64,000 nt of DNA. It comes from Sinimarinibacterium sp. NLF-5-8 (GTDB taxonomy: Bacteria > Pseudomonadota > Gammaproteobacteria > Nevskiales > Nevskiaceae). Both the position numbers and the translations under genes were made by a program. The notes under the pieces are model-generated. The model was given only the letters and a program-made list of their open reading frames with translations. It did not search any database and was not told where the DNA came from. Positions 14,689-35,606 of the stretch are shown in pieces. Every line of letters starts with the position of its first letter. Positions within the stretch are counted from its first letter, which is position 1. Location of the stretch: the NCBI RefSeq assembly GCF_010092425.1, contig NZ_CP048030.1, positions 3,111,501-3,175,500 of the forward strand. Reading direction: 5' to 3'.

Positions 14689-15630
14689 CTATGGCGTGAC
14701 GGGCTTGAGCGCGCGCGCTTCAAAAGCGGGAAACAGGTGCGCCAGTGAGCGGGCAAATTCGGCGTTGAACACCGCCAGGGGGCCGATGTCGGGGGGCGGA
14801 TGGTCGAGCAGCTCGGCCAGATCCTGTCCTTGTTCGGCCGCCGATTGCAGGGTGGTCTGAAGCCAGACCAGATAAGCACGGGTTTGCCTGAGCGCGCGCG
14901 CGTCGCTGACCACCGCGCCATGTCCCGGCACCCAGATGTTGGCGTCGAGGGTGGCCAGAACATCGAGCTGGTCGAGCCAGCGGCGGATATCGGCGTGCGG
15001 GGTGGTGGGCGTGCGCTCAAAGAACAGCAGATCGCCGGCGAATACGGTTTGGCTGGCGGTATCGACGATGACCAGATCGGCTGAGGTGTGTCCCGCCCCG
15101 GCCATCAGCCTGAGCGTGCGGCCGCCGATGTCGATGGTGTCGGCTTCGGCCCTGTGATCGGGCACGGCGCTGCGGGTGCCGGACAGGGCGCTGCCGATCA
15201 GGCGTGAAAGATTGTCCACCAGTGCGGCACCGTCTTCACTGATCTGGCGGCGGGTGGCTTCGAGCGCATAAACCGGAATCCCCGCTTCGATGAACGCCTG
15301 GGTACCCAGAAAATGGTCGGGATGGGCGTGCGTCACATAGGCGCGCAGCACCGAACCATGACCGAGTCTTTTGGCCTGTTCGATCAGCTGTTCGGCATAA
15401 CTGTGAGTGGGGCCGGGGTCGATGACGATGCTGCCTGCGGGCGTGGTGATGATCGCGGTATTGACGATGTTGCCGCCGTTGCTGCGGTTGAAATGGTCGG
15501 TTTGACCGGTCAGGACGTAGATATCGTCGGTGATTTTCTGCGGCGCCAGTGCATAGTCGAATGCGCGCGCGCCGGGAGCGGTGACGCAGATCAACGCCGT
15601 TGCCAGCAGGCTCATCAGTGCGCGCATCAT
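14689..15630 (-). CDS. Quinoprotein relay system zinc metallohydrolase (SoxH-like)
   Basis: A 313-residue exported metallo-beta-lactamase-fold protein with signal peptide ending ARA at residue 23. Zinc ligands are seen in HAHPDH (101-106), AGHTSAD and the later FAGD and PGHG motifs. This subgroup, related to SoxH, is encoded beside PQQ alcohol dehydrogenases and is thought to support their periplasmic electron relay; the reaction is not known. Its ATG overlaps the stop codon of the SoxYZ-like gene by four bases (ATGA). It is the last gene of the cytochrome operon. Confidence 0.88.
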   Translation of the reverse strand: MMRALMSLLATALICVTAPGARAFDYALAPQKITDDIYVLTGQTDHFNRSNGGNIVNTAIITTPAGSIVIDPGPTHSYAEQLIEQAKRLGHGSVLRAYVTHAHPDHFLGTQAFIEAGIPVYALEATRRQISEDGAALVDNLSRLIGSALSGTRSAVPDHRAEADTIDIGGRTLRLMAGAGHTSADLVIVDTASQTVFAGDLLFFERTPTTPHADIRRWLDQLDVLATLDANIWVPGHGAVVSDARALRQTRAYLVWLQTTLQSAAEQGQDLAELLDHPPPDIGPLAVFNAEFARSLAHLFPAFEARALKPVTP

Positions 15631-16418
15631 GGTGCGATCTCGGCCACAAACGGATTGCCCTGGGTATCGCGCGCGCGCAGTTCGACGGCGCCGTTGCCGG
15701 GCAGGTCCAGGGTGATGACAGGGTTTTCGGCGACCGGCTCGAACAGTTCCAGCTCGGCCAGAGTCTGCCCGTGCTCATCCATCACCTGTGCGCGCTCGAT
15801 ATAAAACGCGGGGATGCCGTCGGCCAGCCCCGTATCCATCGGGTGCATGATCTGAAAGCGCAGGCGGCGGTGATCGGTGCGTGGCCACAAGCGGGCCGAT
15901 ATTTCCCCCAGACGATCTGACCACTGGGCATCGCCACTGGCGATGCTGGGCGCAGTGCAGCCGCCACCGGCGGCGTCGATCCAGGCGCCGCCAATATGCC
16001 AAACGCCATCTGCGGTGCGCGCGGCAGCGCGTACCGGCGTGCCTTGCTGCACCTTGAAACGAAACGACAGCGCCGGGTGTGCGTGGATCGGGCGATAGCG
16101 CAGCACGGTGGTAATCGGATTGAGATCGGCAAACACCAGAATTTCTGTCACCGGCTGCGCCAGCGCGCGCGCGTCTACCTGTACGGGGACGTTGAGGGCA
16201 TCTTCGGCTGAGGTCGGCAGCTTGACCTGCACGCGCGCGTCGAACTCGATCGGCGCGCCGCTGAAATAGCGTGTGGCCATCCAGCGCCAGCCGGGGGAAC
16301 GCAGCGGATCGGCATCGCGCGCCACCGCCGGGGCCTGTGCATGGTTTGCCATCGGCGCCAACACCGCCGTACCGGCGAGTGCGGCGATCAGGCCGAGCAG
16401 GGCCGCGCGCGCGCCCAC
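15627..16418 (-). CDS. Quinoprotein dehydrogenase-associated SoxYZ-like carrier
   Basis: A 263-residue exported protein. The N-terminal half is SoxY-like and holds GGGC at residues 151-154, with a carrier Cys at 154 as in the swinging-arm motif of SoxY; the C-terminal half is SoxZ-like. Such fusions occur with PQQ dehydrogenases in Pseudomonas and methylotrophs, presumably carrying an intermediate or assisting the redox relay. GTG at 16418 is preferred because it starts directly before the hydrophobic signal and has GGACGAG upstream; a longer frame overlaps the cytochrome gene. It lies four bases after that gene. Confidence 0.85.
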   Translation of the reverse strand: MGARAALLGLIAALAGTAVLAPMANHAQAPAVARDADPLRSPGWRWMATRYFSGAPIEFDARVQVKLPTSAEDALNVPVQVDARALAQPVTEILVFADLNPITTVLRYRPIHAHPALSFRFKVQQGTPVRAAARTADGVWHIGGAWIDAAGGGCTAPSIASGDAQWSDRLGEISARLWPRTDHRRLRFQIMHPMDTGLADGIPAFYIERAQVMDEHGQTLAELELFEPVAENPVITLDLPGNGAVELRARDTQGNPFVAEIAP

Positions 16419-16422
16419 CGGC

Positions 16423-16878
16423 TTACTCGTCCACCGCGATGCGGTCCAGGTAACTGCGGACTGCCCACATCGCTTCTTCGCTGAAAATACCTTCAAAAGC
16501 CGGCATGTAAGTCACGCCGTTGCGCACCACGCCGTGCGCGATGCGGCCATGAAAATACTCATCGCCCATCTCGCCTTGCGGCAGGTAACGCAAATCGGGG
16601 GCAATCCCGCCGGAGACGCCCTCCAGCCCGTGGCAGCGCGCACAGTTCTGGTTGTAGGCGGAGGCGCCGATATCGGCCGCATGTTCGTGCAGTTTGGCTT
16701 CGGCACGGTAAGGGTTGACGGTCAGATTGGCGTCAACCGCAGGCAAATCCTTGGTGTCAAAGCCGTGGGGCACGACATCACCGTGTGCTGCGACGGTGGC
16801 CGCGCAGCCGAGCAGGCCGAGGGCGGCCACGCTGCGGGCAAGACGCAATGGGTGCGAAAAAACGGGAATGATGTTCAT
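16423..16878 (-). CDS. pedF: Periplasmic cytochrome c-550 (PedF type)
   Basis: A 151-residue monohaem c-type cytochrome. A signal peptide ends near residue 31, the haem motif is CARCH (79-83), and a Met in VTYMPAF is the likely distal ligand. It matches the PedF group, the electron acceptor of PQQ-dependent alcohol dehydrogenases in the periplasm. ATG at 16878 follows GAGGAG. It is the first gene of a three-gene operon driven by the sigma-54-type promoter at 16943-16958. The symbol follows Pseudomonas usage by similarity. Confidence 0.85.
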   Translation of the reverse strand: MNIIPVFSHPLRLARSVAALGLLGCAATVAAHGDVVPHGFDTKDLPAVDANLTVNPYRAEAKLHEHAADIGASAYNQNCARCHGLEGVSGGIAPDLRYLPQGEMGDEYFHGRIAHGVVRNGVTYMPAFEGIFSEEAMWAVRSYLDRIAVDE

Positions 16879-16942
16879 GGGGTGGTCTCCTCGATTGTGG
16901 GGTCGCGTGATCATGGTGAAGACGCGACTGCGAAAATAAAAA

Positions 16943-16958
16943 AGCAAGAACGATGCCA
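16943..16958 (-). promoter_or_regulatory. Sigma-54 (-24/-12) promoter of the cytochrome c550 operon
   Basis: The minus strand reads TGGCATCGTTCTTGCT. This matches TGGCAC-N5-TTGCW except C to T at one -24 position, with the required GG-N10-GC spacing. It lies 65 bases upstream of the start codon. Confidence 0.8.
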
Positions 16959-17070
16959 ATTGAAGTCAGCTGAAAATAAATTTTAAAGCCATGAAATTGA
17001 ACAATTATTTCTGATGGCAGCGGCGCTTTGTCCGCATATGCGCAAGGCTGTGACACCTTGCAGGCGTGAC

Positions 17071-17088
17071 TGTCACATGCGTGTGACA
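17071..17088. promoter_or_regulatory. Inverted repeat TGTCACA-N4-TGTGACA, likely activator site
   Basis: Perfect 7-bp arms about 120 bp upstream of the -24 element of the cytochrome operon, the distance expected of a sigma-54 enhancer. Extra TGACA half-sites lie within 30 bases on each side (TGTGACACC near 17050, GATGACACA near 17098). Confidence 0.7.
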
Positions 17089-17107
17089 GATTGTCTCGAT
17101 GACACAT

Positions 17108-17131
17108 AAAAATGGGCCGGCGAACCGGCCC
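17108..17131 (-). terminator. Terminator of the porin gene
   Basis: Stem GGGCCGG / CCGGCCC with CGAA loop. On the minus strand it is followed by ATTTTTATG, about 54 bases after the porin stop codon. Confidence 0.75.
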
Positions 17132-17184
17132 AATCGGTGCAATGCGCCGCTGTCACAGCGCACCGGAGAGCTCTTGAAGTGGCG

Positions 17185-18384
17185 TCAGAACGATAAAAAA
17201 GCGCCAACGTTGAAGCTGTTGCTGTCGTTTTTGCTGTTGTCATGAGCCTTGCTTTGCACATCGCTGAACTCCGCCACCAACATCAGGTTGGCGGTGAGGC
17301 TGTGATACACCCCCACCGTGACCTTGCTGTTGGATTTGACCAGCGCAGAAGCGGCCTCGCCCGAGGCGCGATCAAGGTTGCTCTTGCCGTAGTTCACGCC
17401 CAGTTTGGTGTCGGCGATCTGGTACGTCGCCTGAGCGATAAAGCCATCCGAATCGCGCGTATTGCCTGCGGCGTCATACCCCAGCAGGTACAGCGCCGTG
17501 GTGCCAACGCCCTTGGCGTTGTAGTAATACGCCATCAGCGCCAGATCACCGACACTGAACTTGCCGCCCACATCAAATGCGTGGCTGGTGTATTCGGCCA
17601 CGCCGGGGTCATTCACCTTTTGGGTCAACCCCGCCGCCGACAGATACAGGCCGCCCGCCGTATACGCCAGCTTGCCGTGAAAACCGGGTGCGCTCTTGGG
17701 GGTGGCCGCCGCCCCGATCGGCTCCAGTGGATCAAACACGCCAAGGGTGGCGGTCAGGCCGCCAAAACTCGGCGTGGTGTAATTCATCTGTCCCAGCGTA
17801 TCGGTGTAGATGTAGCCCATGCCAATGGAGCCCAGCGAAGTGTTGGCCGGACTGGCGTAGTTGCCATTGCCCGCGCCGACGCCGGGGATGGTCATGTCAT
17901 TGATGATGGCGTCAAATCCAAACAGGCCAAAATTACGCCCCAGGGTGAATGTGCCCATGTCGTTATTGCCAAAGGTCATGAACACCTGGCGCACGTCCAG
18001 TCCGGTGGTGCCCAGGCCGGTGTTGGTGCCGCCGAGGTTGGGGCTGCCGCCGTCATTGGTGCTGATGCCCGGATACAGGCCAAAATGAACGGCCAGGTCA
18101 TAGCCATTCTGCGTCGTGCTCGCGCCCAGCGACAGCGCCGCCGGCAGCAGCCCGTTACTCACCGATGACGACTTGTCCTCCCCGCCTGCCGCAAGGCAGG
18201 CCGTGCCGCCGGCCACCGGGGCGGCAGCGTCCTCGCAACTGGACATGATGTAGTGCACGTTGATATTGCCGCTGAATGAAAACGTCCAGTCACCCGCATC
18301 CATTTCAATGGCGTGAGCCGTGCTCATTGCCGCCAGACTGCAGGCACCGATGGCGCAGGCCAAAGCTGTTTTACGCATGTTCAT
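17185..18384 (-). CDS. Outer-membrane porin
   Basis: A 399-residue Gram-negative general porin. A Sec signal ends AHA at residue 25, then beta-strand repeats follow with a Gly/Asn-rich loop 3 region and a C-terminal ...NVGAFLSF ending in Phe for the BAM machinery. Two Cys in an early loop may form a disulfide. ATG at 18384 follows a GGGG-containing leader; a longer frame would need TTG. Its own sigma-54 promoter and inverted-repeat site place it in the alcohol-oxidation regulon, so it probably admits the alcohol or its products. Confidence 0.88.
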   Translation of the reverse strand: MNMRKTALACAIGACSLAAMSTAHAIEMDAGDWTFSFSGNINVHYIMSSCEDAAAPVAGGTACLAAGGEDKSSSVSNGLLPAALSLGASTTQNGYDLAVHFGLYPGISTNDGGSPNLGGTNTGLGTTGLDVRQVFMTFGNNDMGTFTLGRNFGLFGFDAIINDMTIPGVGAGNGNYASPANTSLGSIGMGYIYTDTLGQMNYTTPSFGGLTATLGVFDPLEPIGAAATPKSAPGFHGKLAYTAGGLYLSAAGLTQKVNDPGVAEYTSHAFDVGGKFSVGDLALMAYYYNAKGVGTTALYLLGYDAAGNTRDSDGFIAQATYQIADTKLGVNYGKSNLDRASGEAASALVKSNSKVTVGVYHSLTANLMLVAEFSDVQSKAHDNSKNDSNSFNVGAFLSF

Positions 18385-18498
18385 AAATATCCCCAAAAAG
18401 TCCTCTCTCGCATGATTTAAAACCGCTGATCAACACGGTTCGTGGTGCTGAAAACCGCGCGCGCGGTAGCGCGTGTGTGTTTCAGTCACTCCAGCTAA

Positions 18499-18514
18499 AG
18501 CAAGCGTTGTGCCA
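18499..18514 (-). promoter_or_regulatory. Sigma-54 promoter of the porin gene
   Basis: The minus strand reads TGGCACAACGCTTGCT, a full match to TGGCAC-N5-TTGCW, 115 bases upstream of the start codon. Confidence 0.88.
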
Positions 18515-18594
18515 GTTTTATTTTTATCTAATTTATTGTTTTTAAATGAAGTTTTAATGAATATCCGGCGTGCGCAACCACACCGCGCAAAGGC

Positions 18595-18610
18595 TGACAC
18601 AGTGCTGTCA
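18595..18610. promoter_or_regulatory. Inverted repeat TGACA-N6-TGTCA upstream of porin promoter
   Basis: TGACACAGTGCTGTCA, about 90 bp upstream of the -24 element. The right arm also begins TGTCA-N8-GGACG, a diverged version of the arrangement seen at 17071, so the true binding unit could be the latter. Confidence 0.6.
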
Positions 18611-18764
18611 CAAAACAGGGACGGGGTGTTGCGATGAAAGTGCCGTGAGCCGGCGCGCGCGACTTGGGCAAGGCGGCTGCGCAGTGAGTACAAGGGGTTG
18701 ATCAATCTTTCGCCGCGGACGGTGACGGGGGCTGGCGAAGTTCGTTGCTGGCAGCACGCCGGAA

Positions 18765-18789
18765 TAAAAAAACCCGCACGGGGTGCGGG
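18765..18789 (-). terminator. Terminator of the pentapeptide-repeat gene
   Basis: Stem CCCGCAC / GTGCGGG with a three-base loop followed on the minus strand by seven T residues. Confidence 0.85.
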
Positions 18790-18811
18790 GAGTGGGAGGC
18801 AAACGATGCGC

Positions 18812-19492
18812 TCATGGCAGCTCGGGCGGATGTTCCCAGGTGGTTGGGCAGGCGGTGCAATCGACCATATTGGCGCCTTGAAACAGGGCAAAGCGGATAT
18901 GGGTGCCCTGCAGATCGGCACCTTTGAAGTTGGCAAAGTTGAGCTTGGCTTCCTGCAGATCGGCGTTGGTGAGTTTGGCCCCAACAAACTGGGCTTTATT
19001 GAGCCAGGCTTTTTCAACGGTGGCGGCGGTGAGATCGGCGCCGTTGAAGTGGCTGCCGCTGGCGCGCGCAAAAACCAGATTGGCGCCACGCAGGCTGGCG
19101 TTATCAAAGCGCGCGCCGGCGGCAAAAACCATGGTCAGATTGGCGCCGTCGAGGTTGGCGCCGGTTAAGTTGGCGCCGGTTAAATTGGCATGACGCAAAT
19201 CTGCGCGCGCGAGTTGGGCGCCGCGCAGATCGGCGCCGGTCAAATCCACGTCATGCAGGACGGCGTGGCGCAGATCCGCGCCCTGGCATTGGGTCTTGGG
19301 TGCGATTTTGCAGCCGTTGACCTGTGTGGGGGGTGACCATTCCGGTTCGTCGCCGGAAAGGGTGATTCCGGGTGATGTATCCGCATCTTCTGCCTGTGCG
19401 CCCAGGGGCAGGGCGAGGCTGCCAAGCAGCACAGCGGCCAGTGCCAGGTGCGCGCGCGCGGCTGAAGATGGGAGGGGTTGAGCAAGCTTCAT
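18812..19492 (-). CDS. Exported pentapeptide-repeat protein of the PQQ dehydrogenase locus
   Basis: A 226-residue protein with a signal peptide ending AQA at about residue 34. From about residue 70 to 205 it consists of A(D/N)Lxx pentapeptide repeats, which fold as a right-handed quadrilateral beta-helix. Two Cys pairs flank the repeats (CKIAPKTQC, and C-TAC near the end) and could be disulfide-bonded in the periplasm. A similar gene sits beside pedE in Pseudomonas putida; no function is established. ATG at 19492 follows AGGAGAG. It lies 106 bases downstream of the dehydrogenase gene, with a strong hairpin between. Confidence 0.88.
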   Translation of the reverse strand: MKLAQPLPSSAARAHLALAAVLLGSLALPLGAQAEDADTSPGITLSGDEPEWSPPTQVNGCKIAPKTQCQGADLRHAVLHDVDLTGADLRGAQLARADLRHANLTGANLTGANLDGANLTMVFAAGARFDNASLRGANLVFARASGSHFNGADLTAATVEKAWLNKAQFVGAKLTNADLQEAKLNFANFKGADLQGTHIRFALFQGANMVDCTACPTTWEHPPELP

Positions 19493-19544
19493 CGTGTCTC
19501 TCCTTTGCAGGTCTGAGTCGGTCGTGGCTCAGTTTTTTGTGGTG

Positions 19545-19582
19545 CCCGCTGCGTCCAATCCTGAGGGATTGGACGCAGCGGG
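19545..19582. terminator. 17-bp hairpin between dehydrogenase and pentapeptide genes
   Basis: CCCGCTGCGTCCAATCC is mirrored by GGATTGGACGCAGCGGG. On the minus strand no T run follows directly, so it may act as a partial terminator or mRNA 3'-end stabiliser that keeps the dehydrogenase message above the pentapeptide message. Confidence 0.6.
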
Positions 19583-19598
19583 GTGCCGCCGTCAGAGG

Positions 19599-21458
19599 TT
19601 ATTGACTGAGTTTGAATACCCAGTACGAGCCCCCTTGGGTGACGCGACGGGTCAAATCCGCCATATCGCCACCCCACAGCGGAACTGCGCCGCCGTAACC
19701 CGAGGCAATGCCAAGGTACTGCTCGCCGTCCATGGTCCAGGTGACGGGGATTGATACCACGCCGGAGCCGGTCTGGAATTTCCACAGTTCGGCGCCGGTC
19801 TTGGCGTCAAATGCCTTGACGTAGCCATCGCTGGTGCCGGTAAAGACGAGGTTGCCAGCGGTGGTCAAAGTTCCCGACCACAGCGGCAGCTCCTCTTTGT
19901 GCTCCCACACGATTTTGCCGGTGGTGGGATCGAGCGCGCGCAGCGTGCCGACGTGATCGTCGAACAGGCGCTTGATGCGGAAGCCCATGCCCAGATACGC
20001 CGCGCCGGGGTTGTAGCTGATGTTTTCCGTCCAGTAATCCATCGCCCAGTGATTGGCGGGGATGTAGAACAGATTGGTCTTCGGGTTGTAGGACATCGGC
20101 GTCCAGTTCTTGCCGCCGAGGAAGGGAGGCGAGACGAAGATGGAGTCGCCTTTTTCCTGACCGGGCTTGAGTGGCGGCGGGATTTGCGAACGCACTTTGT
20201 TGGGATAGCCGGTTTTCAGATCAAAGCCGGTTGCCCAGGTGATGCCATCAACGAACGGATACGCTTGCAACAGGGCATTTTGGCGATGGATCTTGCCGCC
20301 GGCCTTGGAGAGCTTTTCGCGGTCGGTGATGAAGAAAAAGCCATTGCGGTCGGCATGCGCGCCGGCCTTGATGGTTTTGCCGTCTTTCTGGTAGTCGAAC
20401 AGGATGATTTCGTTGTTACCGGAAAAATCCCAGCCATCGTTGGGCGTGTGTGCCAGAAAGCCTTTGAGCTCGCCGGTACCCGGATCCACATAGGCTTGTC
20501 CGGAGGTGTAGAGGCTGTCCCACTTCATGGGATCGCCGCCTTCGGGGGTGCGCTGCCAGGTATTCCATGGCGCGGGGTTGCCGGTGCCCACGACGATGGT
20601 GTTGTTGACCACGTCGAATGACGGCGTCTGCCACGGTGCACCGCCGCCCTGGCTCCAGGCTTCGACCTTGCCGGTGGGACGGTTTTTGTCGTCTGGCCAT
20701 GAGGGCGCTTTGATGTCACCGGTGGTTGTGCTGTCTTTGCCGTTGAGTCGGCCCATGTGACCTTCGACCATGGGGCGCATCCAGATTTCTTCGCCGGTGT
20801 CGGGGTCGCGCGCGTAGAGCTTGCCGACGACGCCGAATTCATCGCCCGAGGAACCGTGGACGAGCATGACGCGTCCCGATTTTTGATCCTTGATGATCGC
20901 CGGAGCGCCGGTCATCGTGTAACCGACCTTGTGATCGCCAAACTTCTTGCTCCATACCACTTTGCCGGTTTTGCGATCCAGCGCCACCACGGCGGCATCG
21001 AGCGTGCCGAAGAACACCTTGTCGCCATAAATGGCGGCGCCCCGGTTGACCACGTCACAGCAGGGGCGGATGTCATCGGGCAGGCGGTGCTGGTATGACC
21101 ACAGGCGCTTGCCGGTTCTGGCGTCCAGTGCCCACAGCCGCGAATAGGAGCCGGTCACATAGATCACGCCGTCATACACCAGCGCCTGTGATTCCTGCCC
21201 ACGCTGTTTTTCGTCCCCGAACGAGAACGACCACACCGGAGACAGCTTGGATACGGTATTGGTGTTGATCTGCTCCAGCGTACTGAATCGCTGGGCCTGC
21301 ACACCCATCCCGTAGGTCAGGATGTTTTCGGGGGTTTTCTCGTCGTTGACGATGTCATCCCAGGTCACGCCGGAGGCGGCATAGCCCAGCCCCGGCAGCG
21401 TCATCGCCAGCGCGGCGGCGAACGAGGTTCGCACAGCGCGTTTGATGTGTTTGTTCAT
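19599..21458 (-). CDS. PQQ-dependent alcohol dehydrogenase (quinoprotein, Ca-type)
   Basis: A 619-residue periplasmic type I quinoprotein alcohol dehydrogenase (ExaA/PedE class). It oxidises alcohols to aldehydes and passes electrons to cytochrome c550. A signal peptide covers about residues 1-28. The propeller shows repeated tryptophan-docking motifs (ALDARTGKRLW, ALDRKTGKVVW, ALDPTTGKIVWE), the vicinal disulfide CC at 133-134 over PQQ, GNPAPWN at 294-299, and the catalytic Asp 344 in WDFSG. The residue two after that Asp is Ser, not the Asp that lanthanide-dependent enzymes carry, so calcium is the likely metal. ATG at 21458 follows GAGGAG. Confidence 0.93.
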   Translation of the reverse strand: MNKHIKRAVRTSFAAALAMTLPGLGYAASGVTWDDIVNDEKTPENILTYGMGVQAQRFSTLEQINTNTVSKLSPVWSFSFGDEKQRGQESQALVYDGVIYVTGSYSRLWALDARTGKRLWSYQHRLPDDIRPCCDVVNRGAAIYGDKVFFGTLDAAVVALDRKTGKVVWSKKFGDHKVGYTMTGAPAIIKDQKSGRVMLVHGSSGDEFGVVGKLYARDPDTGEEIWMRPMVEGHMGRLNGKDSTTTGDIKAPSWPDDKNRPTGKVEAWSQGGGAPWQTPSFDVVNNTIVVGTGNPAPWNTWQRTPEGGDPMKWDSLYTSGQAYVDPGTGELKGFLAHTPNDGWDFSGNNEIILFDYQKDGKTIKAGAHADRNGFFFITDREKLSKAGGKIHRQNALLQAYPFVDGITWATGFDLKTGYPNKVRSQIPPPLKPGQEKGDSIFVSPPFLGGKNWTPMSYNPKTNLFYIPANHWAMDYWTENISYNPGAAYLGMGFRIKRLFDDHVGTLRALDPTTGKIVWEHKEELPLWSGTLTTAGNLVFTGTSDGYVKAFDAKTGAELWKFQTGSGVVSIPVTWTMDGEQYLGIASGYGGAVPLWGGDMADLTRRVTQGGSYWVFKLSQ

Positions 21459-21484
21459 AATCAATCTCCTCAACATTTTGCAAA

Positions 21485-21500
21485 TGCAGCACGGTTGCCG
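21485..21500 (-). promoter_or_regulatory. Possible weak sigma-54 promoter of the alcohol dehydrogenase
   Basis: The minus strand reads CGGCAACCGTGCTGCA, which keeps GG-N10-GC but departs from consensus elsewhere. The predicted leader would be only about 16 bases, and no TGTCA inverted repeat was found upstream, so this is tentative. Confidence 0.35.
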
Positions 21501-21567
21501 TGAATCGGCGCGTTGAATCCCCATCTCTCCCCAACATGTCCCAACGCAAAGCGCGGCACTCATTGAA

Positions 21568-21606
21568 GTTGGTCAAAACAGCCGCCGGCCGGGGGTGCCG
21601 GCGGCC
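21568..21606 (-). terminator. Terminator of the aldehyde dehydrogenase gene
   Basis: On the minus strand a GC-rich stem GGCCGCCGGC / GGCCGGCGGC is followed by TGTTTTGACC. It separates the aldehyde dehydrogenase and alcohol dehydrogenase transcripts. Confidence 0.75.
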
Positions 21607-21666
21607 TGTCTGCACCTTGCGTGCGTGCAGGGTGTCGCGCGCGCAAGGTGCAAACCTTGTTACCCC

Positions 21667-23178
21667 TTAACCCAGGCCGACGCAGACGGATTTGGTTTCC
21701 AGGTAGTTGTTGAACACCTCAACCCCCATCTCGCGGCCCCAGCCGGATTGCTTGAAGCCGCCAAACGGCATCGACGCATCAAAGATGTTGTAGGTGTTGA
21801 TCCAGACAGTGCCGGTACGAATACGCGCGGCAATTTTGTGAGCCTTGCTGATGTCACGGGTATATACGCCGCCGCCGAGACCATAAATGGTGTCGTTGGC
21901 CATGCGCAGCAGCTCATCGTCGGCGTCTTTGAAGCGGGTGGCGGTGACCACCGGGCCAAAGATTTCTTCCTGATAAACCTTCATGTCCTCGCGCACGTTG
22001 GTGATCACGGTGGGCGCAACGAAGTAGCCCTTGTCACCGACGCGGGCGCCGCCCGCAGCAAAACTGGCGCCCTGGTCAATGCCGGACTTCAAAAAGCCAC
22101 TGACGCGATCAAACTGCACCTGCGATACCAGCGGGCCCATTTCAGTGGTGGGATCAAGCCCCGGGCCCACTTTCATATTGCGCGCGATCTCGGCAATGCC
22201 GGCCACCACTTCGTCGTACACGCCTTCCTGGATGAACAAGCGTGACCCGGCGCAGCAGCACTGGCCGTGATTAAAGAAGATGGCGTTGGCGGCGCTGGGG
22301 ATGGCGATATTCAGATCGGCATCGTTGAGGATGATGTTGGGCGATTTGCCGCCCAGCTCCAGTGTGACTTTTTTCAGATCATTGGAGGCTGCGCGTGCAA
22401 TCAGCTTGCCAACCTCGGTGGAGCCGGTAAACGCCACCTTGGCCACATCGGGGTGCGCAGCCAGTGGTGCGCCACAGGTTTCGCCAAAGCCGGTGATGAT
22501 GTTGACCGCGCCATCGGGGACGCCGGCTTCCTGCATGATCTCGGCCAGCTTGAGGCCGGAGAGCGGGGTTTCTTCGGCCAGCTTCATCACCACCGTGCAG
22601 CCGGAGGCCAGCGCCGGGCCGAGCTTCCATGCCGCCATCAGCAGCGGAAAGTTCCACGGAATGATCTGCGCCACTACGCCAACCGGCTCACGGCGGGTGT
22701 AGGCGTGATATTCCACACCCGGGGTGTACGGCACCGACAGATTGAGGACACGGCCATCGAGTTTGGTACACCAGCCGGCCATGTATTGAAACAGTTCAGC
22801 GGCCAACACCACATCGGCGGCGCGCGCCACCGAAATCGGCTTGCCGTTATCCAGTGCTTCGAGCTGCGCCAGCTCCTCCTGGTATTTCATGATCAGATCA
22901 CCGATGCGCCAGATGATCTTGCCACGCTCGGCAGGGGTGATCTTGCCCCAGGGGCCGCTTTCAAACGCACGCTTGGCTGCGGCAACGGCCGCATCCACGT
23001 CGGCTTTGCCGCCGGAGGGGGCGTGTGCAATCACCTCGCCGGTGGCCGGGTTGACAACCTCGAAAAACTCGCCGCTTTTGGCTGTGACCCATTTACCGTC
23101 GATCAGCATTTTGCGCTTCTCGCCAATGAAGGCTTTGACGTTGGGTAACAGTTCGACTAATGGTGCATCCGTGGTCAT
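21667..23178 (-). CDS. NAD(P)-dependent aldehyde dehydrogenase
   Basis: A 503-residue ALDH-superfamily enzyme that oxidises the aldehyde made by the neighbouring quinoprotein to the acid. Visible motifs are the NAD-binding PWNFP and GSTEVG segments, the general base Glu 274 in LELGGKSP, and the catalytic Cys 308 in GQCCCAGSR. The sequence resembles the phenylacetaldehyde/PedI-like branch more than ExaC, but specificity cannot be fixed from sequence. ATG at 23178 has GAGGAG upstream. It is transcribed from a near-consensus sigma-54 promoter and diverges from the AcoR-like regulator gene. Confidence 0.9.
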   Translation of the reverse strand: MTTDAPLVELLPNVKAFIGEKRKMLIDGKWVTAKSGEFFEVVNPATGEVIAHAPSGGKADVDAAVAAAKRAFESGPWGKITPAERGKIIWRIGDLIMKYQEELAQLEALDNGKPISVARAADVVLAAELFQYMAGWCTKLDGRVLNLSVPYTPGVEYHAYTRREPVGVVAQIIPWNFPLLMAAWKLGPALASGCTVVMKLAEETPLSGLKLAEIMQEAGVPDGAVNIITGFGETCGAPLAAHPDVAKVAFTGSTEVGKLIARAASNDLKKVTLELGGKSPNIILNDADLNIAIPSAANAIFFNHGQCCCAGSRLFIQEGVYDEVVAGIAEIARNMKVGPGLDPTTEMGPLVSQVQFDRVSGFLKSGIDQGASFAAGGARVGDKGYFVAPTVITNVREDMKVYQEEIFGPVVTATRFKDADDELLRMANDTIYGLGGGVYTRDISKAHKIAARIRTGTVWINTYNIFDASMPFGGFKQSGWGREMGVEVFNNYLETKSVCVGLG

Positions 23179-23285
23179 GGTGACTCTCCTCATCAGATTT
23201 ATGACTGAAAAACGGGTATCAAAACCGAATCCAGGCCGCTGTTCAGGGGGCTGTGATGGCAGTGCCTGATTCGCAGCAGAGCATT

Positions 23286-23301
23286 CGCAAGACCTGTGCC
23301 A
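23286..23301 (-). promoter_or_regulatory. Sigma-54 promoter of the aldehyde dehydrogenase gene
   Basis: The minus strand reads TGGCACAGGTCTTGCG, matching TGGCAC-N5-TTGC exactly, 108 bases upstream of the start codon. Confidence 0.88.
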
Positions 23302-23408
23302 GAACCTGTTTTTTCAGTAACTTGATGATTTTGAATCGGTTGTTTTTGTAATCGAATGAGCCTTGCGCTGTCGGTGTCACCGTCTCGAAGCAGCCTCATC
23401 TGACGAAC

Positions 23409-23424
23409 TGTCACGGATATGACA
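23409..23424. promoter_or_regulatory. Inverted repeat TGTCA-N6-TGACA, likely activator site
   Basis: TGTCACGGATATGACA, about 118 bp upstream of the -24 element of the aldehyde dehydrogenase, in the divergent region next to the regulator gene. Confidence 0.7.
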
Positions 23425-23573
23425 CATCCCCGCCGAAGGTGCGCGAGCGCTTTTGTTTGACCGCGCCCAAGCACATCGGTAGCGTGCAAGTCAATGGGAC
23501 AAAAACCCGGATGACAAACGCTGCACAGATTGCACAGTGCAGCCGTCTTGCAAATGGCACAGGAGAACGCCGG

Positions 23574-25619
23574 ATGAAACAGCAAGTCAACGCAGTCACG
23601 CACGTCAGCAACGTGATGAACATGGTCTATGAGTTTCCGCGCGTGCCCAGCGATATTGATCGCGCGGTGGCGTATTCATGGCTGCGCTGTGCCAATGAGC
23701 ATCGCATTCGCCCCGACAAGCCGATTGATCCGGCCGTGCTGGAGCGCGCGCAGCTGCGTGAACGCCAGCAGCGCATGGAGGATCTGGTGGCCATTGCGCG
23801 CACCGAGATGGACTCCCTGTATGAGCAAATTTCGGGATCGGGCTATGCCCTGCTGCTGACCGATACCGAAGGCGTGATCCTCAGCGAACGGGTTGATCCG
23901 ACGCTGCGCGAGGACTTTCACAATGCCGGGCTGATGACCGGCGCCAACTGGAGCGAAGCCTACGAAGGCACCAATGGCATCGGCACCTGCATTACCGAGC
24001 GCCGCCCGATCACCATTCACCTGAATGACCACTTCATGAGTCGGCATATCAACCTGAGCTGCTCGGCTTCTCCGATCCGCGATCCCTCGGGCGACATGAT
24101 CGCCGTGCTTGATGCTTCCTGTCTGAGCAACATCGACAGCAAGGCCAGTCGCATGCATTCCGGTGCGCTGGTCAACCTGTCGGCGCGGCTGATCGAAAAA
24201 TGCCTGTTTTTGCGGCGCAATCGCGAACATCGGGTATTGCGTTTTCATAGTCGCCCGGAGTTTGTGAACTTGTTGCACGACGGCGCCCTGGCCGTGGGGC
24301 ACGATGGCCGCATCGTCGCTGCCGACGAGATGGCGGTGATGTTGCTGGCGGCGGAGTCGCGCGCGCAGTTGGTCGGCACAGCCGTCTGGGAGTTGTTTGA
24401 CATCAGTGAGCGTGAACTGGCCGAGTCGCTGCGCACCGGCACGCGCCAGACCATTCTGCCGATCCGCGATGTGGCGCACGGACGCCGTTACTACGGCACT
24501 TTGCAGGGCGCCCAGCACGAGCCTTTGCGCACCCGCCGTGCGCCAACCGAGGTTGTCACCGTCAATGCCCGGCAATCCACCGAGTCCCGGCATTACACCC
24601 TGGCCGAGCTGAGCGGCTCTGACCCGACGATGCTGCGCAACCTGCGCTGTGCCCAGCGCATTGCCAACTCCACGGTCTCGGTTCTGATTCATGGCCCCAC
24701 CGGCTCTGGCAAAGAAGTCTTTGCGCGCGCGGTGCACAACGCCAGCGAGCGCGCGCAAAACAACTTTGTTGCGATCAACTGTGCCGCGATTCCCGAATCG
24801 CTGATCGAAAGCGAACTGTTTGGCTACAAGCCCGGTGCCTTCACTGGCGCGCGCCGCGACGGCATGCGCGGCCGCATTCAGCAATCCAGTGGCGGCACCC
24901 TGTTTCTGGACGAGATCGGCGATATGCCGCTGCAACTGCAAACCCGTCTGTTGCGGGTGCTGGAGGAGCGTGAAGTCACGCCGCTGGGCAGCGAGCTGTC
25001 GGTGCAGGTGGACCTGCGCCTGATCAGTGCCTCGCACCGCAACCTGCGCGAGATGATTGCCGAAGGCAAGTTTCGTGAAGATCTGTACTACCGGCTCAAC
25101 GGCATCACCATGGAACTGCCGGCCCTGAGCGCGCGCGCCGATATCGACGAAATGATTCGCCGCGTGCTCGCCGAAGAAACACTCGATGGGCGTCCCGTCG
25201 GCATTGAAATGTCGGCGTTTGAGCTGTTGATGCAGCATCGCTGGCCGGGCAACCTGCGCGAACTGCGCAACGTCATCCGCACTGCGCTGGCGATTGCCGA
25301 AGGTGGGGTGATCCGCGTCGTGGATCTGCCGCAGGAAGTGCGGACGCCGATGGCAGCGCCCATCGCGCACGCCACATTTGCAAGCGTGGCTTCGCCAAAA
25401 CAGGCGTCCTCTGCCACGGATGCAAGCACCATCGGTACCGGCAACCCCTTGCTGGCCGCCGAGCGCGCGGCGCTGCTGCGTGCCATTGAAACCAACCGCT
25501 GGAACATGACCAACACCGCCCAACAACTGGGGATGAGTCGCAATACCCTGTATCGCAAACTCAAACAGCATGGGATCTCAGCCACTGCCCTGCGCAGTGA
25601 CGGACTGTCACATTTCTAG
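23574..25619 (+). CDS. AcoR-like sigma-54-dependent transcriptional activator
   Basis: A 681-residue enhancer-binding protein. The N-terminal half has a GAF-like sensor (about residues 70-210) with the NGIGTC motif seen in AcoR proteins, then a PAS-like segment (about 225-310). The AAA+ domain has Walker A GPTGSGK (374-380), the sigma-54 contact loop GAFTGA (421-426), Walker B LFLDEIGD and the arginine-finger region. A Fis-type helix-turn-helix is at the C-terminus (NMTNTAQQLGMSRNTLYRKL). ATG at 23574 follows AGGAG; longer frames lack a signal. It is the best candidate for binding the TGTCA/TGACA sites nearby and sensing the alcohol, aldehyde or a derivative. Confidence 0.93.
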   Translation: MKQQVNAVTHVSNVMNMVYEFPRVPSDIDRAVAYSWLRCANEHRIRPDKPIDPAVLERAQLRERQQRMEDLVAIARTEMDSLYEQISGSGYALLLTDTEGVILSERVDPTLREDFHNAGLMTGANWSEAYEGTNGIGTCITERRPITIHLNDHFMSRHINLSCSASPIRDPSGDMIAVLDASCLSNIDSKASRMHSGALVNLSARLIEKCLFLRRNREHRVLRFHSRPEFVNLLHDGALAVGHDGRIVAADEMAVMLLAAESRAQLVGTAVWELFDISERELAESLRTGTRQTILPIRDVAHGRRYYGTLQGAQHEPLRTRRAPTEVVTVNARQSTESRHYTLAELSGSDPTMLRNLRCAQRIANSTVSVLIHGPTGSGKEVFARAVHNASERAQNNFVAINCAAIPESLIESELFGYKPGAFTGARRDGMRGRIQQSSGGTLFLDEIGDMPLQLQTRLLRVLEEREVTPLGSELSVQVDLRLISASHRNLREMIAEGKFREDLYYRLNGITMELPALSARADIDEMIRRVLAEETLDGRPVGIEMSAFELLMQHRWPGNLRELRNVIRTALAIAEGGVIRVVDLPQEVRTPMAAPIAHATFASVASPKQASSATDASTIGTGNPLLAAERAALLRAIETNRWNMTNTAQQLGMSRNTLYRKLKQHGISATALRSDGLSHF

Positions 25620-25623
25620 AACA
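25606..25623. promoter_or_regulatory. Imperfect TGTCA-N8-GAACA site overlapping regulator stop codon
   Basis: A diverged form of the 17071 site with the same 8-base spacing, about 95 bp upstream of the -24 element at 25710. Confidence 0.45.
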
Positions 25624-25709
25624 GATTGTTTGCAGGCCTGATGGGGCTCAGCGCCCTTGCTGTGCCGATGCCCTGCGCGGATCGTTGTTGAACCGCTGTT
25701 GTGGAACGC

Positions 25710-25725
25710 TGGCACGCAAGATGCA
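25710..25725 (+). promoter_or_regulatory. Sigma-54 promoter of the PqqD-like gene
   Basis: TGGCACGCAAGATGCA: a full -24 box and GG-N10-GC spacing, with one change (T to A) in the -12 box. It lies 40 bases upstream of the start codon. Confidence 0.75.
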
Positions 25726-25764: not shown

Positions 25765-26094
25765 ATGGGCATGGGGCGTGGTGATGCGGCAGTTGGCCTT
25801 GGCGTTTCAGGGGCAGCCGATGCGTACATTGCCACTGCGGATCAAACCCGGCTGGTCTGGGAGCCGCGCGGGTCCTGCCACGTCTTGCAGTGTGCCGATG
25901 GTGCGATTCAGCTCAACCCCGGTGCCGTCCAGGTGATCCAGCAGTGCAACGGCGAGCACACCTTGATGCAGATCATCGCGCGGTTGACCCGGGGCGTCGA
26001 GCAGCCGACACAACTGGCGCGCGATATCCAGGAGTTTGTACAAACCGCACTTGCGCGCGGATGGCTGCAAGTGCGGGAGAGGGCGCCGGTGTAA
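25765..26094 (+). CDS. Second PqqD-like protein (RiPP recognition element fold)
   Basis: A 109-residue PqqD-family protein. Compared with the PqqD encoded at 32596, it keeps LVWEPRGSCHVLQCADGAIQ-type strands and the helical C-terminus ending in ARGWLQV. PqqD binds the PqqA precursor peptide and presents it to the radical SAM enzyme PqqE, using a winged-helix RRE fold. ATG at 25765 has AAAGGAG at ideal spacing. It is expressed from its own sigma-54 promoter, away from the pqq operon. It could be an inducible extra PqqA chaperone or have a different peptide partner; none is visible beside it. Confidence 0.8.
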   Translation: MGMGRGDAAVGLGVSGAADAYIATADQTRLVWEPRGSCHVLQCADGAIQLNPGAVQVIQQCNGEHTLMQIIARLTRGVEQPTQLARDIQEFVQTALARGWLQVRERAPV

Positions 26095-26163: not shown

Positions 26164-26523
26164 TTAGCTCACCAGCGACAGCGCGCCTTCGCTCAGGTAG
26201 TAATCGACGAAAACCTCCAGCGCCTGTGGTCGCTGTAGTCCGGCTTTGAGCATCAACAGCCGACCATCCCGAAATAGCGCCAGGCAGGGGGTGGTGCGTA
26301 CATCAGCGGACAGCGTGGCTTCGGGGTTTTGTTGAAGATTGACTTGCACCACATGCAGGCTGTCGCGGCGCTGCATGGCCAGGCGTTCAAGCAGCGGCAA
26401 TTGGCGATCGCACCAAATGCAATGATCGCGGGTGTACAGCACCAGGGTGGGTAAAGGACTGTGGAGCTGCTGCTGCAGGGCGGCAGAATCGAGACTGGGG
26501 ATGGGCTTGATCATCATCGGCAT
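26164..26523 (-). CDS. Thioredoxin-fold protein with CIWC motif
   Basis: A 119-residue thioredoxin-like protein. The redox motif CIWC is at residues 35-38 after LVLYTRDH, and the cis-Pro region TTPCLALF includes an extra Cys. No signal peptide is seen, so a cytoplasmic thiol reductase or disulfide isomerase is likely. ATG at 26523 has GGAAG upstream; ATGs two and three codons later are possible. It converges on the PqqD-like gene. The nearby cofactor genes suggest, without proof, a role in cofactor or cytochrome maturation. Confidence 0.82.
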   Translation of the reverse strand: MPMMIKPIPSLDSAALQQQLHSPLPTLVLYTRDHCIWCDRQLPLLERLAMQRRDSLHVVQVNLQQNPEATLSADVRTTPCLALFRDGRLLMLKAGLQRPQALEVFVDYYLSEGALSLVS

Positions 26524-26627
26524 GCACTTCCAGGTCGGCGGGGATAAAAACCAAGCAAAATCAATGCCAGCACGCCTGGGCGCCGGGCTGGCGATTGTGG
26601 AGTCGATTCATCGGCCGCGTGCAAAAC

Positions 26628-27297: not shown

Positions 27298-28503
27298 CTA
27301 CGGAAAATCCTGATTTACCCGCGCGCGCAGCAACGTGTGTCGTTGCAGGGACAGTGCCACGACCAAAAACGCAACACTGGTCGCCGCCCACGCCGACAGC
27401 CAGCCGATCTGGATCAAGCCTCCGGCGATCAGCGGACTCATCAGCATGGCCAGCGATTGCAGCGACTGGCTGATGCCAAAGGTGATGCCCTGGCGCTGTG
27501 GCGGCACGCTGCGTGACAGCAGGCTGAGCAGGCAAGGGCGCAGCAGACTGTTGCCCAGTGCGATCAAGGTCAGGCTGAGCGCCAGCATCGGCAGGGTGAA
27601 GGTTGCGCCGAGCAGGGCGTAACCCAGCAATGTCATCGGCAACGCCCATGCGGTCAGGCGTACCTCGCCAAAGCGGTGCACCAGGCGGCCAATGATCAGC
27701 AGCTGCGTGAGCAGACCCAGGGCGCCGACATAAGCCAGTGCCGCACCCACCTCAAATGCCCCAAAACCGTGTCCGTTCCAGAGCAGGCGGCGTTCGGCAA
27801 ACATGGCAAAACCTGAAGTGAACAGGCTGAACGAGGCCAAAAATGCAAACAGCCGCCACAACTGCGCGCGCACCGGGACATCCTGCGGTGCAGCAATGGC
27901 CGATCGCGCCGGGAGATCGGCTGGCGCGCGTGCGTTGCCAACCTTGCCGCGCGGCAACAGCAGCAGGGTGCACAGCAGGCTGGTCAGGGATAACCCGGCG
28001 GCAATCCACAGTGGCAGCCGCAGGCTGATCGGTGCCAGCGTCGCGGCGCCCGCAGGGCCGACGATCATGCCAAAGCCAAAGGCGGCGCTGATCAGGCCAA
28101 ACGCAGCGGCGCGCTGCGGCGCAGGGGTGATATCGGACAGATACGCGCGCGCGGTGGCCATGTTGCCGGCCGTGATGCCATCGACCATGCGCGCAACAAA
28201 CAGCCACGCCAGATTCGGCGCCAGCGCCATCAGGACAAAGCCCAGCGTGGAGCCTATCTGTGCAATCACCAAAACCGGCTTGCGTCCAAAGCGGTCGGAC
28301 GCGCGCCCCAGCAGCGGCCCGGCGACCAGGGCAAACAGGCCGTAGCTGCCAATCACCATGCCCACAGTGGCCGGGGTGGCACCCAGATGCTGGGCGTAAA
28401 ACGGCAACAGCGGAATCACCACGGCAAAGCCGAGCACGTCGATGAATACGATCAGCAGAATCGGCCACAGCAGCGCGCGCGGCACTTGCAGGCGCGCGCT
28501 CAT
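27298..28503 (-). CDS. MFS transporter of the TetA/multidrug-efflux type
   Basis: A 401-residue 12-helix major facilitator. The loop 2-3 motif is GRASDRFGRKPVL and the conserved helix-5 motif of drug/H+ antiporters appears as GFGMIVGPA. Its ATG overlaps the stop codon of the response regulator (ATGA), making it the last gene of a four-gene coupled operon with the iminopeptidase and two-component system. Export of the alcohol, its aldehyde or acid, or of PQQ itself, would fit this context; that is inference. No close match to a named transporter is claimed. Confidence 0.88.
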   Translation of the reverse strand: MSARLQVPRALLWPILLIVFIDVLGFAVVIPLLPFYAQHLGATPATVGMVIGSYGLFALVAGPLLGRASDRFGRKPVLVIAQIGSTLGFVLMALAPNLAWLFVARMVDGITAGNMATARAYLSDITPAPQRAAAFGLISAAFGFGMIVGPAGAATLAPISLRLPLWIAAGLSLTSLLCTLLLLPRGKVGNARAPADLPARSAIAAPQDVPVRAQLWRLFAFLASFSLFTSGFAMFAERRLLWNGHGFGAFEVGAALAYVGALGLLTQLLIIGRLVHRFGEVRLTAWALPMTLLGYALLGATFTLPMLALSLTLIALGNSLLRPCLLSLLSRSVPPQRQGITFGISQSLQSLAMLMSPLIAGGLIQIGWLSAWAATSVAFLVVALSLQRHTLLRARVNQDFP

Positions 28504-29144
28504 GGATCAATCAGCCCCGCGCGCAGCGCCATGATGGTCAGATCGGCCTGATTGGAGGCCTTGAGTTTTTGCTTGATGTTGTACAGATGCGTGCCAACCG
28601 TGCGCGGCGACAGGTGCAGGGTTTCGGCAATACCGTTGACACTGCCGCCCTTGGCCAGCGCCACAAACACTTCAAACTCGCGCGCCGACAGGATGTCCAC
28701 CGGATGTTGTTCGGGCGCAAGCTGCTGCACCATCATCCGCTGCGCCAGCGTTGCCTGCACATACATCTGACCTGCTGCAATGTGGGTGATGGCCTGGATC
28801 AATTCTTCGGCGGCGCTGCGTTTGGTCAGATACCCGAACGCGCCGGCCTTGAGCGCGCGCCGGGGATGGATGGTGTCTTCATGGGCAGACAGCACGAGGA
28901 TGCGCAGCTCAGGATATTTGCTGTGCAGGCGGCTGATCGCCTCCAGTCCGCCGATGCCGGGCATGGTCAGGTCGATCACCAGCACATCGGGCAGCCCCTG
29001 GGCGCACAGGCGCAGCGCCGATTCGCCGTCTTCGGCTTCGGCACAGATGCGGATGTTGGGCGTGCCCTGCAACAACATGCGAAAGCCCATACGCACCACG
29101 GCGTGGTCGTCCACCAGCATCACATTGATCGGGTTTGGCGTCAT
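28500..29144 (-). CDS. LuxR/NarL-family response regulator (ExaE/AgmR-like)
   Basis: A 214-residue response regulator. The receiver domain has the acidic pair VDDH, phospho-acceptor Asp 58 in VIDLTMPG and the conserved Lys in LTKR; the C-terminal LuxR-type helix-turn-helix reads NGIAETLHLSPRTVGTHLYNI. In Pseudomonas the comparable regulators (ExaE/ErbR, PedR1/AgmR) control quinoprotein ethanol oxidation and pqq genes. The ATG overlaps the sensor kinase stop by four bases, and its own stop overlaps the MFS start, so the three genes are translated together. Confidence 0.9.
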   Translation of the reverse strand: MTPNPINVMLVDDHAVVRMGFRMLLQGTPNIRICAEAEDGESALRLCAQGLPDVLVIDLTMPGIGGLEAISRLHSKYPELRILVLSAHEDTIHPRRALKAGAFGYLTKRSAAEELIQAITHIAAGQMYVQATLAQRMMVQQLAPEQHPVDILSAREFEVFVALAKGGSVNGIAETLHLSPRTVGTHLYNIKQKLKASNQADLTIMALRAGLIDP

Positions 29145-31458: not shown

Positions 31459-31536
31459 AGAAAATGACTCCAAAGGGCGCGCGCAAACATAGCAGTCCTG
31501 CTGTCCGGCGCGCGCGCATCCGCTGATGGCGCCCAA

Positions 31537-31549
31537 GTGACAGTGTCAC
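31537..31549. promoter_or_regulatory. Palindrome GTGACAGTGTCAC between pip and pqqA
   Basis: A perfect 13-base palindrome built from the same GTGACA/TGTCAC halves as the other sites, but with a one-base centre. It lies midway between the two divergent operons and could be an operator for either. Confidence 0.5.
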
Positions 31550-31571
31550 CCGCCAATCATGGTTTTCATTA

Positions 31572-31587
31572 AGGCCGATTGCGTGCT
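31572..31587 (+). promoter_or_regulatory. Possible sigma-54 promoter of pqqA
   Basis: AGGCCGATTGCGTGCT keeps GG-N10-GC and TGC at -12 but is weak elsewhere. It would give a leader of about 100 bases. Confidence 0.35.
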
Positions 31588-31698
31588 TGCGCGCTGTTGT
31601 CCGGCGCGGCGCATCCCAACAATAAGCCTCAGGTCATGCCGATGGGGCGTGACCCGATTGCTCACGCAGTCTTTCATTTTGTTTTGAGGAGAATTGAG

Positions 31699-31773
31699 AT
31701 GGCCTGGACCAAACCTGCTGCGGTTGATCTGCGTTACGGCTTTGAAATCAATCTGTACGTGTCCGCACGCTAA
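31699..31773 (+). CDS. pqqA: PQQ precursor peptide PqqA
   Basis: A 24-residue peptide, [20 protein letters not shown] plus VSAR. Glu 16 and Tyr 20, spaced E-x-x-x-Y, are the residues joined and converted into pyrroloquinoline quinone. GAGGAG lies eight bases upstream of the ATG. It is the first gene of the pqq operon; a pair of hairpins separates it from pqqC, as expected where much more PqqA than enzyme is needed. Confidence 0.97.
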
Positions 31774-35537: not shown

Positions 35538-35557
35538 ATGACAGGGTGTTGCCTGCC

Positions 35558-35572
35558 TGACACAAGTTGTCA
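35558..35572. promoter_or_regulatory. Inverted repeat TGACA-N5-TGTCA before cytochrome b561
   Basis: TGACACAAGTTGTCA, only 35 bases upstream of the start codon. This close position differs from the distal sites elsewhere and would suit repression or a different regulator. Confidence 0.45.
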
Positions 35573-35606
35573 CGCGCGCGCATCCGTGACCCAAGGAGAC
35601 AACAAC

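Follow-up and report, generated by a model that had tools for sequence, protein, structure and literature searches.

In Pseudomonas aeruginosa, EatR (PA4021) is the sigma-54 activator of ethanolamine catabolism and, in the accessible text of its account, senses acetaldehyde rather than ethanolamine (PMC5821096). We compared this and other described systems with a gene cluster for quinoprotein alcohol oxidation from Sinimarinibacterium sp. NLF-5-8 (contig NZ_CP048030.1, positions 3,111,501 to 3,175,500). The whole stretch of 64,000 nt is called the window, and an earlier note, made from its sequence, had proposed here a sigma-54 regulon tied to an AcoR-like activator and to TGTCA/TGACA repeats. 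AcoR has the same GAF-AAA+-Fis architecture as the activator of the window. Its targets differ, being the acetoin genes in the portions available of two reports (PMC6615313, PMC3543383).

The Pseudomonas ped/exa cluster (AgmR/PedR1, PedS2-PedR2) has a similar gene set, comprising a porin, a quinoprotein alcohol dehydrogenase (ADH), cytochrome c550, a pentapeptide protein and two-component regulators (PMC12997753), but is under LuxR-type/two-component control, with CbrB as the sole sigma-54 regulator named in the accessible part of the source. The contrast with Pseudomonas drawn in the earlier note is fair, as far as the excerpts at hand extend (PMC12997753, PMC6115532, PMC13390443), but a sigma-54-controlled quinoprotein ADH was already known from Azospirillum, whose exaA is under sigma-54 with a LuxR-type regulator; unlike for the window, the available text mentions no GAF-AAA+ activator (PMC6115532). 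BmoR from Thauera butanivorans is, in the parts accessible of its accounts, an alcohol-responsive sigma-54 enhancer-binding protein (EBP) with an upstream inverted repeat (PMC8899819), but it controls an alkane monooxygenase (PMC6366067) and its upstream activating sequence lies 193 bp upstream (PMC8899819). Among the matches listed in the titles and abstract openings of the open-licence literature, we found no earlier report of quinoprotein ADH or pqq genes under an activator of the AcoR/EatR type.

We consider it highly probable that the window holds a sigma-54 regulon for periplasmic alcohol oxidation dependent on pyrroloquinoline quinone (PQQ), driven by one EatR/AcoR-type EBP encoded in the middle of the cluster. 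The activator, with its helix-turn-helix (HTH), and the candidate promoters and enhancers, including those of the aldehyde dehydrogenase (ALDH) gene, are as follows.

23574-25619, + strand: EatR/AcoR-type sigma-54 activator (GAF, AAA+, Fis HTH), start codon ATG at 23574; Pfam GAF, Sigma54_activat, AAA_lid_14 and HTH_8
24834-24851, + strand: codons of the GAFTGA loop, intact
25536-25562, + strand: HTH segment SRNTLYRKL, with identical letters in EatR
16943-16958, - strand: cytochrome c550 -24/-12 promoter TGGCATCGTTCTTGCT, GG-N10-GC
18499-18514, - strand: porin -24/-12 promoter TGGCACAACGCTTGCT, GG-N10-GC
23286-23301, - strand: ALDH -24/-12 promoter TGGCACAGGTCTTGCG, GG-N10-GC
25710-25725, + strand: -24/-12 promoter TGGCACGCAAGATGCA before the second PqqD-like gene, GG-N10-GC, with ATGC as its -12 element
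17071-17088, strandless: candidate enhancer of cytochrome c550, TGTCA-N8-TGACA
18595-18610, strandless: candidate enhancer of the porin gene, TGACA-N6-TGTCA (everted)
23409-23424, strandless: candidate enhancer of the ALDH gene, TGTCA-N6-TGACA (inverted)
25606-25623, strandless: imperfect candidate enhancer at the end of the activator gene, TGTCA-N8-GAACA

The deduced activator contains an N-terminal GAF domain (PF01590, 38.8 bits, residues 70-183), an AAA+ sigma-54 interaction domain (PF00158, 227.8 bits) with the motifs GPTGSGKE, GAFTGA and LFLDEIGDM, and a Fis-type HTH (PF02954, 45.8 bits). The GAFTGA loop together with the Walker motifs identifies it as a sigma-54 EBP, and no receiver domain occurs among the 12 families matched, as in the AcoR/EatR-type architecture. 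A regulator with an intact GAFTGA loop does, as the earlier note stated, lie in the middle of the cluster; its AcoR-like label fits the domain architecture, but the closest named match in the plasmid records searched is EatR, not AcoR (46.4% identity over 642 amino acids, 94% of the protein). Solved structures matched the AAA+ part and, in a few cases, also the HTH. Of nine matches to the activator in the genome (E ≤ 0.001), only its own is full-length, the alignments of the other eight AAA+ proteins being limited to residues 342-672 or less. The genome also has a gene for sigma-54 (PF04552).

Like the window, the EatR locus has an ALDH gene divergent from the activator gene, with a -24/-12 site scoring 15.1, and the HTH of EatR shares the segment SRNTLYRKL. 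The promoter region of its ALDH gene carries TGTCAC/cGTGACAG half-sites, although these are 21 bp apart, as compared with 6-8 in the window, and the two ALDH proteins are 41% identical. The EatR locus is an eut operon, and the annotation of the stretch examined lists neither a pqq gene nor one for a quinoprotein, c550 or a porin, whereas the neighbours of our activator are ALDH, quinoprotein, porin and cytochrome c550 genes, with no eut genes among them. By these comparisons the activator is a protein that would work like EatR, yet it is not an EatR orthologue as judged by its targets.

The four -24/-12 promoters predicted earlier, all with the GG-N10-GC spacing, were recovered at the same coordinates. 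The repeats, one of them imperfect, had been placed about 90-120 bp upstream, and their centres indeed lie 123 (c550), 90 (porin), 117 (ALDH) and 97.5 bp (PqqD-like unit) from the GG of the -24 element. GC content in the 60 bp before the -24 is 25-33% at the c550, porin and ALDH promoters and 63% at the fourth, in a window of 61% GC. Of the four units, the PqqD-like one is the weakest, because the right half of its repeat is imperfect, the left half lies within the coding end of the activator gene and there is no AT-rich spacer. Thus, three units of the four-unit regulon claimed by the earlier note (c550, porin and ALDH) stand with exact pairs, but the fourth is weak and imperfect.

Repeat pairs occur at 14 places across the 3.2 Mb genome (10 inverted with N6-8 and four everted with N6). 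A sigma-54-like site scoring at least 13 lies within 30-250 bp of three of these 14, which are precisely the three of this cluster; four of the remaining 11 places have weak sites (8.1-11.8) and seven have none. A repeat accompanied by a promoter-like site of score 11.8 (G000:C1:1944011) was rejected, that site being within an open reading frame (ORF). The pattern TGGCAY-N5-TTGC, whose counts do not depend on the scoring matrix, was found 46 times in the genome, as compared with seven for the reversed control pattern; the fourth promoter, with ATGC at -12, falls outside these 46. An exact repeat pair is present 30-200 bp upstream of three of the 46 sites (c550, porin and ALDH), whereas the other 43 show at least two mismatches to any pair, with nine geometries allowed. 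Dinucleotide shuffling of these 46 upstream stretches, repeated 2000 times, gave on average 0.0185 pairs and never more than one; the three geometries counted in this test were picked after the window had been seen. The two matches to TGGCAC-N5-TTGC within the 64 kb were reached in eight of 100 shuffles, and the three matches to TGTCAC-N5-GTGACA, a pattern of other spacing, in 48 of 100, which is no excess over chance. It is the pairing of repeat and promoter, and not either motif alone, that stands out from chance, and genome-wide the promoters with an enhancer in common (3/46) all lie in this cluster. A genome scan, which the earlier note proposed as a check and which was made here with both patterns, gave an exact pair with a strong promoter three times, always in this cluster.

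To the window we compared 20 stretches fetched around activator homologues of 43-69% identity (L115-L134) and 12 loci fetched later (L213-L224). In the closest relatives (L115-L117, activators 67-69% identical), an everted N6 pair lies upstream of the porin gene in all three, as in the window, and an inverted N6 pair lies between the ALDH and activator genes in L115 and L116, again as in the window. An inverted N8 pair fronts the quinoprotein ADH gene in these two loci, and a one-mismatch N8 pair is found at the end of their activator genes, like the site at 25606. Repeat geometry had been called unsettled; spacing and orientation do vary, but the inverted N6 of ALDH, the everted N6 of the porin and the N8 of the quinoprotein operon recur in two to three relatives each. 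Read by eye towards the promoter, the ALDH site is GTGTCA-N5-GTGACA and the porin site GTGACA-N5-GTGTCA; since both are an 11-bp repeat of GTGWCA, "inverted" and "everted" may be a single arrangement with a degenerate centre base.

Half-sites were strongly enriched at the promoters of related loci. Among L115-L125 (11 loci, 10 of them giving 20 promoters) we counted 43, against 3.1 in shuffled sequences, and 47 against 5.5 among L213-L224 (30 promoters from 11 of the 12 loci), values reached by none of 300 shuffles in either case. Conversely, 41 other promoters from the genome that holds the window, used as a control, contained nine half-sites against 6.4 (reached in 72 of 300), which is no excess. 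One-mismatch pairs in the first 20 promoters were inverted N6 (5), inverted N8 (5), everted N6 (3) and inverted N4 (1), with none in 14 other geometries, and the 30 promoters of the later loci gave inverted N6 (9), inverted N8 (2) and everted N6 (1). The activator is present in 24 of 58 genomes of the family (E ≤ 1e-160), and the composite pattern occurs at 21 places in these 58, eight of them no more than about 7 kb away from an activator gene; the reversed control gave four. A sigma-54 regulon tied to the activator, as the earlier note proposed, is thus the best reading of the locus: the pairing is confined to the cluster, recurs beside activator homologues and is absent from diverged loci that retain the two-component pair.

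In ten of these relatives (L119, L120, L123, L214 and L216-L221), the activator gene has a sigma-54 site of its own with upstream half-sites, which suggests that the activator might activate itself there; no such site was seen upstream of the activator gene of the window.

The other genes of the cluster are the following.

14689-15630, - strand: quinoprotein relay zinc metallohydrolase 1 (TIGR04558)
15627-16496, - strand: quinoprotein-associated SoxYZ-like carrier, adjoining the c550 gene codirectionally (TIGR04557)
16423-16914, - strand: cytochrome c550, PedF family (TIGR04494, 172 bits, cut-off 122)
17185-18381, - strand: porin (PF13609)
19599-21461, - strand: PQQ alcohol dehydrogenase with the calcium-type serine (WDFSG; TIGR03075)
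21667-23178, - strand: aldehyde dehydrogenase (PF00171)
25765-26094, + strand: second PqqD-like gene (TIGR03859, 64.5 bits, cut-off 46)
28500-30493, - strand: LuxR-type response regulator and HisKA_3 histidine kinase

Most likely, the cluster is an aldehyde-responsive regulon of the EatR type, for which we infer the binding, the looping, the inducer and the direction of regulation. The Fis-type HTH of the activator would bind GTGWCA/TGWCAC half-sites, arranged gene-specifically about 90-125 bp upstream of the -24/-12 promoters; the AT-rich stretch would allow DNA looping, and the GAFTGA/AAA+ domain would open the sigma-54 polymerase complex. Because EatR senses acetaldehyde, we propose by homology that the signal is the aldehyde formed in alcohol oxidation, so that the aldehyde dehydrogenase, the outer-membrane porin, the c550 electron acceptor and the PQQ-related gene would be induced jointly.

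Several observations weigh against such a regulon. Within the window, the quinoprotein ADH gene has no sigma-54 site upstream (best score 7.6), and in L115 and L116 the promoter of this gene scores only 11.4. The matrix behind all the sigma-54 scores was set up from general knowledge of such promoters. An inverted N6 pair lies upstream of the activator gene with no adjoining ALDH gene in L117, L121 and L122, and L123 has an N8 instead of an N6 pair by the activator gene; the N6 site occurs together with ALDH in two relatives only. The more distant loci L126-L134 (activators 43-52% identical) showed no excess of half-sites in eight promoters (two against 0.7, reached in 57 of 300 shuffles). None of the 12 later loci has an exact pair, their 30 promoters also gave one-mismatch pairs in other geometries (inverted N4, 2; everted N11, 2; inverted N10, 1; everted N7, 1; everted N9, 1), and these loci are not independent because several of the genomes come from one genus. 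Of the 21 places with the composite pattern, 13 are elsewhere than near the activator gene, more than the four of the reversed control, and seven of these 13 belong to genomes in which no activator passed the threshold applied. Finally, in the accessible text on BmoR, the response was like that of the wild type after removal of the upstream inverted repeat (PMC8899819), and a repeat of this kind therefore need not be the binding site.

Across a wider range of taxa, 49 of 80 loci among the matches listed had an activator match longer than 550 amino acids, and 12 of these 49 also had a quinoprotein ADH match in the stretch. An N6-N8 repeat pair was present in three of the 49, in none of them with alcohol genes, and we therefore do not claim the site model outside the family. 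In three loci from other Proteobacteria (L050, L054 and L055, activator homologues 38-40% identical), the activator gene is divergent from a c550 match, with sigma-54 sites scoring 16.1-18.3 and exact repeats not present; L054 additionally has matches to pqqC, pqqE and quinoprotein ADH.

The coexistence of two-component and sigma-54 regulators in the window, noted earlier, holds with the LuxR-type regulator and HisKA_3 kinase at 28500-30493, and raises the alternative that this regulator binds the repeats and acts with sigma-54. Sigma-54 needs an AAA+ ATPase, whereas the response regulator of the window contains a receiver and a LuxR domain only. Azospirillum exaA offers a precedent in the part of its account available (PMC6115532), and in several relatives the two-component pair lies inside the cluster. 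However, four of the six loci with exact pairs (L117, L121, L122 and L123) have no regulator match in the stretch fetched, although the stretches of L121 and L123 are truncated where their contigs end, and a match to the kinase is present in L117 and L121; conversely, L126-L131 have the regulator (43-47%) yet show no exact pair and no one-mismatch pair at a cluster promoter. Because four of the six pair loci show no regulator match in the stretch fetched and six regulator loci are without pairs, the activator is the better candidate, and binding by the response regulator appears improbable.

It is more improbable still that another EBP uses the sites, for instance a NifA-like protein among the eight further AAA+ matches in the genome: the ALDH site TGTCA-N6-TGACA contains TGT-N10-ACA, which we take to be the NifA consensus, but neither the N8 nor the everted sites match it, and the sites recur around the activator gene in relatives. 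A NifA-like activator was also rejected because none of the nine matches exceeded the TIGR01817 cut-off. Equally slight is the probability that the repeats are due to chance or serve another use, such as binding a repressor, with promoters active without them: 11 of the 14 genomic repeats have no strong sigma-54 site nearby and a similar repeat was dispensable in the BmoR promoter, according to the excerpt available (PMC8899819), but the pairing is confined to the cluster (3/46, with a shuffle maximum of one) and half-sites are in excess in relatives.

Comparison with relatives also bears on the history of the proposed regulon. The order in L115 and L116 is porin, enhancer and promoter, quinoprotein ADH and cytochrome c550, whereas in the window enhancer and promoter are followed by cytochrome c550, with no ADH gene between. 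The ADH of the window is the only full-length quinoprotein ADH of its family in the genome and has the calcium-type serine, not the aspartate of lanthanide-type enzymes, under the rule for lanthanide use as given in the accessible text of PMC5487730. That aspartate is present in 17 of 19 relative loci, with serine in one and one unread; 13 of the 17 enzymes are 53-56% identical to that of the window and four only 36-38%. We read WDFDG in L115-L118, L120-L122, L214, L216-L219 and L221, and WDFSG in the window and in L125, where the serine-type ADH gene follows the porin gene, with a promoter site scoring 13.8 and a one-mismatch N8 pair. The simplest reading of these gene orders is that a lanthanide-type ADH gene was lost here from the enhancer-controlled operon, and the WDFDG/WDFSG difference looks like a change of metal type accompanying that loss.

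A broader proposal, which we regard as possible but doubtful, is that an EatR-type aldehyde-sensing EBP is more widely the ATPase by which sigma-54 governs quinoprotein alcohol oxidation, that of the lanthanide-type enzyme of the family included, and the missing partner of the LuxR-type regulator in Azospirillum; here, the lanthanide-type gene would have been lost, leaving enhancer and promoter on the cytochrome gene and the calcium-type enzyme outside the regulon. For the cluster of the window, control through sigma-54 by an activator located in the cytoplasm and probably sensing aldehyde would represent a product-feedback design, as opposed to the LuxR-type/two-component control that the accessible sources describe for Pseudomonas. 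The site model is precise enough for testing, suggests where the ATPase lacking in the account of Azospirillum exaA might be sought and would provide promoters together with a sensor for short alcohols or aldehydes.

The promoter that follows the activator gene lies 75 bp before pqqA in L115 and 79 bp before it in L118; in the window, the PqqD-like gene occupies the slot held by pqqA in these two loci, and pqqA (31699-31773) heads pqqACDEB. A TGACAgTGTCA palindrome lies about 150 bp upstream of pqqA (31538-31548), and the region 31531-31720 has no sigma-54 site (best score 3.7). A fifth -24/-12 site, TGGCATTGATTTTGCT (26554-26569, - strand), is located about 31 bp before a thioredoxin-like gene (26164-26523). 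It was rejected as a member of the regulon for want of a TGTCA/TGACA repeat (best, three mismatches) and may be under another activator. Lastly, a TGACA-N5-TGTCA repeat at 35558-35572, next to which the site list of the window shows no strong sigma-54 site, lies near the start of a 200-amino-acid ORF (35538-36140) that, judged by eye, reads like a membrane cytochrome b.

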